Below are positions 10,998 to 48,407 of a DNA stretch of 48,407 nt, one piece after another. The translations under genes and the position numbers were made by a program. The DNA comes from an archaeon (GTDB lineage: Archaea; Nanobdellota; Nanobdellia; Woesearchaeales; GW2011-AR9), in NCBI GenBank assembly GCA_002688265.1, contig NZCK01000018.1:1-48407 (forward strand), in the 5' to 3' direction. A model generated the notes under the pieces. That model did no database searches. It was not told the DNA's origin and saw nothing but the letters and a program-made list of their open reading frames with translations. Within the stretch, counting starts at the first letter, position 1. Every line of letters starts with the position of its first letter.

Positions 10998-11687
10998 ATG
11001 AATACTGAACTAGCTGAATTTTTAGGAATTATGTTTGGTGATGGTTGTTTGTCTAGAAATGCTAAAGCAAGAATGATCTATATTTGTGGTCATAAGGAAG
11101 ATGATCTTGTTTATCATCAAACAATAACTTTGCCTTTGTTGAAAAAATTATTTAATAAGGATGCAATAATTGGATTTAGAAAAAAGGAAAATGCTCTGTT
11201 CATAAAATTTTCAGATAAAGAAATATTCAATTTTCTAAAGCAATATCTTCCTGTTGGGAGAAAATACGAATCGATGAGAATACCTAAAGAAATATTACTA
11301 AAAAAAGAATACTTATTCGCCTTCTTCAGGGGCCTTATTGATACAGACGGTTGTATAGTGTTTAGCAAGCAGCATAAGAAGGAAGCATATTATCTTCGAA
11401 TTGAGTTATCTAGTAAATCAAAAGAATTTCTGTTAATATTGCTTCAGGAATTAAAGAAATATAATTTTTATGGTTCTGTAAGTCATAAAGGCAAACAAAA
11501 TTATCGATTAGAATTACCAGGAAGAAAGAATTTACAGAGATATATTCAAAACATAGATTTCCATAATCCAAAAATTCATAAAAAAATAAGAAAAAAAGCG
11601 TCCCGGATGGGATTTGAACCCATGATCCCGCGGTTAACAGCTTCACGGAAAGAGACCTTGTGGGGTCAACTTGATCGCGTGCTCTAG
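10998..11687 (+). CDS. LAGLIDADG homing endonuclease-like protein
   Basis: Two LAGLIDADG-type motifs (LAEFLGIMFGDGCL; FAFFRGLIDTDGC). The C-terminal ~30 codons are antisense to a tRNA gene. Confidence 0.82.
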   Translation: MNTELAEFLGIMFGDGCLSRNAKARMIYICGHKEDDLVYHQTITLPLLKKLFNKDAIIGFRKKENALFIKFSDKEIFNFLKQYLPVGRKYESMRIPKEILLKKEYLFAFFRGLIDTDGCIVFSKQHKKEAYYLRIELSSKSKEFLLILLQELKKYNFYGSVSHKGKQNYRLELPGRKNLQRYIQNIDFHNPKIHKKIRKKASRMGFEPMIPRLTASRKETLWGQLDRVL

Positions 11688-11705
11688 CCGCTGAGCCACC
11701 GGGAC
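11599..11705 (-). tRNA. tRNA-Asn(GTT) with ~34-nt intron (approx. 11642-11675), apparently at non-canonical position 30/31
   Basis: GTCCCGG/CCGGGAC acceptor, T-arm ATGGG-TTCAAAT-CCCAT, G73; mature anticodon arm CGCGG-CTGTTAA-CCGCG forms only if the internal 34 nt are removed. Confidence 0.85.
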
Positions 11706-40246: not shown

Positions 40247-40323
40247 AATAACACCTCATAATCTAAACCTTAACAATGGTTAATAATTTATAATACTTTT
40301 GAAAGAACATTTTAAGAAAAAAG

Positions 40324-40429
40324 TGTGGACGGCAGGGTTCGAACCTGCGTAAGCACTAAGCTACTGGGTTTCATAGGTTTACAAACAACCCCCTAAGCCC
40401 AGCCCGTTTGACCACTCCGGCACGTCCAC
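40324..40429 (-). tRNA. tRNA-Leu(TAG) with 22-nt canonical intron (approx. 40370-40391)
   Basis: GTGGACG/CGTCCAC acceptor, anticodon stem CTGGG/CCCAG, loop CTTAGG-[intron]-A, long variable arm, T-arm GCAGG-TTCGAAC-CCTGC. Confidence 0.92.
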
Positions 40430-46572: not shown

Positions 46573-47403
46573 ATGCAAATTGAAATTAGTCTAAACAAAT
46601 CTGTGGATGAGAACGCAGGAATTTATTATAACAAAGCCAAAAAAGGCAAGAAGAAGTTGGAGGGAGCGAAAGCCACTGTAGAGAAATATCAAAAAGAGTT
46701 AGAAAATCTTCAAGGTAAAGAGGCAGAGTTTCAAGAGAAAGAAGCAACTAAAGAAGCTAAAAAAGCCAAAAAATTAGCTAATCAAAGATGGTATTCTAAA
46801 TTTCATAATTTTATTTCCAGTGAAGGTTTTGTTTGTGTTGGTGGTAGAGATGCTACTCAAAATGAGATTCTGATCAAGAAGCATACTGAAGTAAATGATT
46901 TAGTTTTGCATACTGATATGGCAGGCAGTCCTTTTTTTGTTATCAAAGATGGACAAAATAAGAAGTGTACAGAAATTACAATTGAAGAAGCAGCTCAGGC
47001 AGTTGCTTGTTATTCTAGAGCGTGGAAAGAAGGGCATGGGACTGCTGATGTTTTGTATGTTAAACCAGAACAAGTATCTAAGGAAGCAAACCCTGGCGAA
47101 CATTTAGCTAAAGGCAGTTTTATGATTCGTGGTAAGACTAAATATTTGCATCCCAAGTTAGAGTTTGCAGTTGGGAAAACAACCTCTAAAGAAGGGGAAG
47201 AGGAATTGGTTAGTGGTCCTGCTATGACGATCATTAAATTGTGTCAAGATTACGTTTTAATTTTACCTGGAAGGGAGAAGAAGTCTGCGCTTGCAAAATT
47301 AATCAAGAAGGAGCTTAAAATTGGTGACTTGGATGATTTAGTGGCTGCTTTACCTGCTGGTGGTGCTCAGATTAAGAAGCAAAGGAAACGTAAAAATAAG
47401 TAG
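46573..47403 (+). CDS. NFACT-R (DUF814) domain protein; RqcH-like C-terminal half only
   Basis: Coiled-coil then FISSEGFVCVGGRDATQNEILIKKHTEVNDLVLHTDMAGSPFFVIK, HGTADVLYVKPEQVSK, MIRGKTKYL. Confidence 0.88.
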   Translation: MQIEISLNKSVDENAGIYYNKAKKGKKKLEGAKATVEKYQKELENLQGKEAEFQEKEATKEAKKAKKLANQRWYSKFHNFISSEGFVCVGGRDATQNEILIKKHTEVNDLVLHTDMAGSPFFVIKDGQNKKCTEITIEEAAQAVACYSRAWKEGHGTADVLYVKPEQVSKEANPGEHLAKGSFMIRGKTKYLHPKLEFAVGKTTSKEGEEELVSGPAMTIIKLCQDYVLILPGREKKSALAKLIKKELKIGDLDDLVAALPAGGAQIKKQRKRKNK

Positions 47404-47442: not shown

Positions 47443-47556
47443 GTCCCCGTAGTTTAGCATGGATATGACGCAAGCTTGCGGTACGCGTAAAGCACAGCTT
47501 AACGGATTTTGCGTTGCAAATAGCTTGAAACCCGAGTTCAAATCTCGGCGGGGACA
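47443..47556 (+). tRNA. tRNA-Arg(GCG) with ~40-nt canonical intron (approx. 47482-47521)
   Basis: GTCCCCG/CGGGGAC acceptor, anticodon stem CAAGC/GCTTG, loop TTGCGG-[intron]-A, T-arm CCGAG-TTCAAAT-CTCGG, A73. Confidence 0.88.
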
Positions 47557-47636
47557 CTTCTTTTCATTTCTGAGTCTCTTCCATGTGTTTAACAGAATTT
47601 TATATAATTCGTGCAATGTCCCAAAGGAGGGACAAA

Positions 47637-48407
47637 ATGGCAAAAGATGACATCTATGGAAACAAGCGAAGATATGAGAATTTGGTTTCAAATCTTGAAT
47701 CGTTTCTAGAGGTACCAGAAATCAAGAAGGGAAGGGGAAAACGCAAGTATTACATCAAATACAAGCAGAATCTCAAACACTTTTCAAAGCTCTGTACTCA
47801 TTTTGAGATGAAAGATTTGAGTTTTTCTCGCAGAGTTCGTGTAATTGGCGTATTGCTTTTCATCACTTCTATTGTAAACAAAGATCTCAAAGATTGTACA
47901 CGAGATGATATTAACGAAATCATTGCTGCAATGCATAAGGTAAACACTACTGTTTCTAGTAAAACATCTTTCATCAAGAACATCAAGTGCATCTGGCGTG
48001 TGCTGTTTCCAGAAAAGGATCATTTAGGCAGAGATGACGAAACCTTGTGTCCATATGTCGTGCGGCATCTCTCACGTAAAATGGATAAGAGCAAAGAAAC
48101 ATTGCGTAATGAGAAGTATACTATTGAGGAATTTCAGCAGATTATCAAATTCTTTGAGAAAGACCCTAAGGTTCAAGCCTTCATTACAATCATGCAGGAA
48201 ACGTATGCAAGGCCTCAAGAGTTGCTGTATTTGAAAATACGTGACTTGCAACTGTTTGATAACTATGGTGTGGCGCGAGTGTCAGAACATGGGAAAGAAG
48301 GATGTAAATTGATTCAGTTTGAGAATCTATCGTATCCCTATCTGTTGAAATGGTTGGGTGAACACCCTTTGGCAAACGACCCAAATGCTTTTTTGTTTAT
48401 CAATGAA
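47637..48407 (+). CDS. Tyrosine recombinase/integrase (partial, truncated at window end; absent from ORF track)
   Basis: Open 257-codon frame from ATG 47637: MAKDDIYGNKRRYENLVSNLESFLEVPEIKKG...ITIMQETYARPQELLYLKIRDLQLFDNYGVARVSEHGKEGCKLIQFE...; catalytic Arg context (YARPQELLYLKIRDL); GGAGG upstream. Confidence 0.85.
   Translation, partial: MAKDDIYGNKRRYENLVSNLESFLEVPEIKKGRGKRKYYIKYKQNLKHFSKLCTHFEMKDLSFSRRVRVIGVLLFITSIVNKDLKDCTRDDINEIIAAMHKVNTTVSSKTSFIKNIKCIWRVLFPEKDHLGRDDETLCPYVVRHLSRKMDKSKETLRNEKYTIEEFQQIIKFFEKDPKVQAFITIMQETYARPQELLYLKIRDLQLFDNYGVARVSEHGKEGCKLIQFENLSYPYLLKWLGEHPLANDPNAFLFINE

Follow-up and report, generated by a model that had tools for sequence, protein, structure and literature searches.

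A truncated tyrosine recombinase gene behind tRNA-Arg(GCG) very probably marks the left end of an integrated archaeal element

Among the tyrosine recombinases of archaea, classical and suicidal integrases have been described, with tRNA 3′ ends as favoured targets (PMC8371274) and with attachment (att) sites that can be as short as 13 bp in SNJ2, 11 bp in Msmi-Pro1 and 8 bp in Thaumarchaeota (PMC8371274). DPANN, Woesearchaeota and Nanoarchaeota are not mentioned in this review (PMC8371274), and little has been recorded of gene movement in small, mostly uncultured archaea. Here we analysed a stretch of 48,407 bp (the window), which is the entire contig C18 of a genome of 1.07 Mb in 32 contigs, 85% complete, whose host, judged by the size of the genome and by its relatives, is probably a small-genome DPANN archaeon. 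We conclude with high confidence that the end of C18 is the left end of a mobile element of the classical (non-suicidal) type, integrated at the 3′ end of a tRNA-Arg gene.

The locus resembles the classical integrases (type II, pNOB8/SNJ2-like) in its tRNA 3′-end target, its short att site, the restored tRNA and an intact integrase gene (int) beside att, a gene seen whole and in that place in relatives, while the window shows the left side only. It differs from the classical systems as reviewed in belonging to a sequence family of its own, in a box II that reads Y-x-x-K-R and not YxxR, in a CxxC...CxxC zinc-ribbon-like C-terminal tail with a coiled-coil-like end, and in its host, probably a small-genome DPANN archaeon. 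What it has in common with the SSV-type (type I, suicidal) integrases is a tyrosine recombinase whose target is a tRNA 3′ end, but attP lies outside the gene, int is whole after integration in relatives, and box II is not KxxR. The catalytic domain is related to that of XerA by sequence profile (5hxy), whereas the family is not universal, is linked to tRNAs and has an extra C-terminal part.

The tRNA-Arg gene and the recombinase fragment

A preliminary description of this DNA had reported a tRNA-Arg gene followed by a truncated tyrosine recombinase gene, and the present analysis confirmed the observation. The following features were located at the end of the window.

46573..47403, plus strand: NFACT-type (RNA-binding) gene, host flank (open reading frame; homologues in other genomes)
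47443..47556, plus strand: tRNA-Arg(GCG), putative attachment target, with exons 47443-47481 and 47522-47556 and a 40-nt intron at 47482-47521, position 37/38 (ARAGORN, intron removal, intronless G002 orthologue)
47599..47608, plus strand: TATA-like sequence, probable promoter element of the integrase, predicted from sequence
47637..48407, plus strand: tyrosine recombinase (integrase), represented by its first 257 aa out of 410-460 expected (open reading frame, PF00589, family alignment)

The tRNA gene had rightly been taken for an intron-containing tRNA-Arg: a clean class I tRNA-Arg(GCG) is obtained once the 40-nt intron after position 37 is taken out, and position 37/38 is the usual place of introns in archaeal tRNAs. 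It is colinear with the intronless tRNA-Arg(GCG) of a genome of the same genus (G002), which adjoins the same NFACT-type gene. ARAGORN run without introns missed the tRNA at 47443-47556; run with introns, it called a tRNA-Pro(TGG) there, which was rejected since it demands an implausibly long variable arm. The gene upstream, which from knowledge of the family and not from a profile search we take to be NFACT, is represented by homologues in 20 of 21 genomes. Several genomes of the family keep it linked to tRNA-Arg(GCG): the tRNA lies downstream of it in G002, G008 and G006 and also, bearing extra introns, in further genomes. Elsewhere in the window, two more intron-bearing tRNA candidates (Asn and Ser; ARAGORN with introns) were seen on the minus strand at 11598-11705 and 40323-40429. 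The T-arm of tRNA genes in these genomes also often seems to hold an extra intron, adjoining the att-core stretch, as in L139, L142, L145 and L147 (tRNA-Arg of G010, G011, G003 and G009) and in L082, L084, L085 and L038; several tRNAs with such an apparent T-arm intron still have an integrase behind them.

The recombinase begins with an ATG at 47637, about 80 nt past the tRNA and thus where the preliminary description had placed it, and its frame, which had been noted to run off the window, is open for 257 aa to the last base of C18 (48407). Because the window is all of this contig, the frame truly leaves at the end of the assembly. The contig end cuts the protein after the box I Arg and the β-hairpin Lys. 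Both residues had been pointed out beforehand; they lie in ARPQE and SEHGKEG and are conserved across the family. Together with an identity of 46-53% to three family-level relatives (G025, G009 and G014), they bear out the assignment to the tyrosine recombinases. PF00589 matched the fragment with 25.6 and 23.7 bits, just under the cut-off of 27.1 bits, the 23.7-bit match (E 4.6e-5) covering positions 6-99 of 172. The other half of the integrase, with box II and the Tyr, was not found on any other contig of the same assembly, and no overlap was found between the end of C18 and another contig of the assembly. Similar TTATAAATT / TTTATATA stretches to the TATA-like sequence precede int in relatives.

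The integrase family and its tRNA targets

Profile searches of the wider order and phylum recovered full-length members of the family, about 410-460 aa long. In the order, 36 of 359 genomes had a family match at the cut-offs applied, some of these 36 being more distant, as did 23 of 380 genomes in the phylum (roughly 6-10%); a scan of genome contigs for related loci found no relative. Three tested full-length relatives passed PF00589 (E 9.5e-12 to 2.8e-9), and comparison of the family profile with solved structures matched XerA (5hxy, E 1.2e-8). The box I R, the K, the W and the Y (in TYD or VYD) are present in all 12 aligned full-length sequences, the residue next to the box I R deviating in one of them. 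All 12 also read Y-[ST]-[LIF]-K-R at the place of box II and carry the CxxC...CxxC tail after the Tyr. Where the protein is complete in relatives, box II has the sequence YSLKR, and the Tyr stands in KTYD. YSLKR aligns opposite the HVLRH of XerA, an alignment that would put a Lys at the usual position of the second Arg, with an Arg adjacent to it. The R...YxxR...Y signature of the pNOB8 type was not found in the relatives, which read YxxK with the Arg one residue later.

We found no description of this integrase family in the open-access literature. The element would belong to the classical archaeal integrase elements, with an unusual Y-x-x-K-R box II and a zinc-ribbon-like tail in its integrase family. 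A broader proposal, to which we give an even chance of being right, is that an undescribed DPANN integrase family (Y-x-x-K-R for H-x-x-R, zinc-ribbon tail) is a common integration module of diverse elements and easily switches its tRNA target from one close relative to the next.

For 25 of the 29 family members, the 260 bp upstream contain a same-strand tRNA T-loop motif, compared with 13% of random stretches; among the four members without the motif, L090 and L119 show tRNA 3′ ends and L094 a tRNA-like start. The targets named by ARAGORN, some of them uncertain owing to introns, were Gly, Gln, Leu, Tyr, Trp, Pro, Glu and Cys, to which the present locus adds Arg. Sister integrases, in a comparison backed by rough bootstrap values, sit at different tRNAs (Leu/Glu, Leu/Gly and Tyr/Trp) and offer a natural series for asking how target choice changes. 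That the gene might be a resident chromosomal recombinase, XerA-like and beside a tRNA by chance, would agree with the distant XerA similarity (5hxy), but the patchy distribution of the family, its many different tRNA neighbours and flanking repeats, and four other PF00589 genes in the genome make this highly improbable. At one locus (L090, G103:C38), tandem tRNA-Gly 3′ ends were seen between the tRNA and the integrase, 250 bp before int, as if elements had repeatedly entered the site.

The two probable ends of the element in this genome

The repeat of the tRNA 3′ end that the preliminary description had proposed looking for was found on contig C7 of the same genome. The features that delimit the two ends are the following.

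47548..47559, plus strand: attL core GCGGGGACACTT, comprising the acceptor-stem 3′ end, the discriminator and 3 nt
47566..47590, plus strand: left inverted arm ATTTCTGAGTCTCTTCCATGTGTTT, just inside the left core
G000:C7:209545-209556, minus strand: right core GCGGGGACACTT, direct repeat of attL (exact 12-bp match)

The copy on C7 was first met as a near copy in a search with a tRNA-end pattern. Its distance from the C7 terminus is about 0.4 kb; it has the expected orientation and adjoins a sequence that repeats the left flank in inverted form, and 0.02 copies of a 12-bp core are expected by chance. The 27-bp core proposed earlier proved too long, the shared core being only 12 bp. The inverted copy of ATTTCTGAGTCTCTTCCATGTGTTT matches at 21 of 25 positions, the first 14 being identical; it occupies bases 359-383 as counted from the C7 terminus, separated by 15 nt from the right core on its inner side, and none of 300 shuffled flank pairs equalled the score of the C18/C7 arms. 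From 11.8 kb inward, the genes of C7 match genes of G002 in the same order with 59-88% identity, and by eye these shared host genes include DUF368, GrpE and DnaK. The matched genes lie 5-11 kb downstream of the tRNA-Arg of G002, which is without this integrase there. The 12-bp core, the inverted arm and the host synteny on C7 thus indicate that C18 and C7 flank one insertion site, although a core of this length is short and the synteny on the far side comes from one relative (G002). The two ends of the element lie on separate contigs across an unsequenced gap, and the middle of the element and the C-terminus of the integrase are missing from the assembly. In support of the earlier suggestion that an element extends beyond 48407, the core and arm on C7 and the synteny with G002 are joined by closed relatives in which one contig holds both ends.

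Under the preferred reading of a classical element, the integrase would act on a short core in attP and on the 3′ terminus of tRNA-Arg(GCG), recombining the two. The shared 12 bp would rebuild the acceptor end, and for this reason the tRNA would be kept intact. The gene int would lie just inside the left end, reading away from the tRNA, and would be whole upon integration, while the inverted arms inside both cores would probably act as extra integrase-binding sites that enlarge attP over attB. On the same reading the integrase would be active and would bind the arms, and the element would be able to excise.

About 5 kb of other genes separate the tRNA-Arg of G002 from the shared block, and the right core of C7 is separated from it by about 11 kb, whose genes have no counterpart in that stretch of G002, so that the site is a hotspot and may harbour nested or tandem insertions. 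The C7 genes in this interval encode a coiled-coil protein of 907 aa, a 1075-aa protein that unites an SNF2-type helicase with a methyltransferase domain, and other proteins; their matches in a defence library were all weak, and they may form another island at this hotspot. These large genes near the right end of C7 (G000:C7, L169, ~8.9-19.4 kb) are possibly an unrecognised defence island.

Attachment sites and cargo of related elements

In closed relatives, both cores lie on one contig and int is beside att and intact after integration. The tRNA 3′-end repeat downstream of int measures 16 bp in G513, 14 bp in G103, 13 bp in G374, G309, G290 and G389, 12 bp in G277 and 11 bp in G191; G128 has a 14-bp repeat at 26 kb, and in G398 the entire tRNA is copied downstream of int. 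Repeats of at least 11 bp were present downstream of int at 9 of 19 loci and at none of the 19 reversed controls; shifted controls gave 8 of 95, three of which came from one locus with the whole tRNA duplicated. A search of the relatives for exact repeats of at least 15 bp gave nothing useful, most cores having a length of 11-14 bp; the scan for shorter repeats succeeded. Overall, the elements of relatives are 6-28 kb long and bounded by tRNA 3′-end repeats of 11-16 bp and by inverted arms. The left arm (9-17 bp) begins 1-7 nt inward of the left core, and a distance of 8-16 nt separates its inverted copy from the inner side of the right core. With right cores picked without regard to arms, true left/right pairs scored at least 9 in 8 of 10 elements, while mispaired arms reached 8 in 3 of 90.

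These relatives bear on whether the integrase could be suicidal (SSV-type), its own gene being split by integration. Three of the four closest copies do end at contig ends within the gene. However, the full-length int of relatives is intact inside bounded elements with the core outside the gene, the attL core of the window lies 77 nt before int, so that attP is not within it, and the stops of the relatives fall at different codons and are accounted for by insertions or contig ends; we consider a suicidal integrase very unlikely. Of the broken relatives, G009 stops at 276 aa without box II, and G224 and G139 seem to be interrupted by insertion sequences, their tails reading by eye as the start of a transposase (MARPKGK) in G224 and as an IS605-like hairpin in G139. 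A programmed break in int, which contig ends inside int in several genomes might have indicated, was rejected, the breaks being at different codons and two of them having these insertion-sequence-like tails.

The same truncated relatives, together with the repeated tRNA-end scars in G103 and the absence of the C-terminal half from every other contig of the assembly, would fit a gene that is the decayed N-terminal remnant of an old integration, with the C7 core as another scar and no movable element. We judge this unlikely: the frame is open and conserved to the last base, which is the end of the contig, both cores and both arms are preserved, and in a genome that is 85% complete a missing element middle is to be expected. 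For the classical element that we favour, the broken state of several relatives means that the copy in the window might be dead. A recognisable integrase and att anatomy (tRNA 3′-end core and inverted arms) make mobile elements findable in broken assemblies, and here they allowed an element to be bounded across two contigs.

The cargo of relatives, which says nothing on that of the window's own element, includes restriction-modification genes in G309 (by eye) and G374, a reverse transcriptase (RVT_1) with two paralogous proteins in G513, of the diversity-generating type by eye, and, in G128, an ATPase of TraG/VirB4 type whose start is PrgI-like. No homologue of the G128 ATPase was found in the assembly of the present genome, from which the middle of the element is missing. 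If the proposal of a common module is true, one integrase module would serve cargo islands of ~6-14 kb (restriction-modification, reverse transcriptase with paired paralogous proteins) and also a 28-kb element with a VirB4-type ATPase. Two elements of G128, at tRNA-Leu (L086) and tRNA-Glu (L087), have a gene set in common that includes a VirB4/TraG-type ATPase and a small pilin-like membrane protein, and are candidate conjugative elements. In the 8-kb element of G513 (L128:5204-8566), the reverse transcriptase and the two paralogues, which have similar C-termini, form a candidate mobile diversity-generating retroelement.
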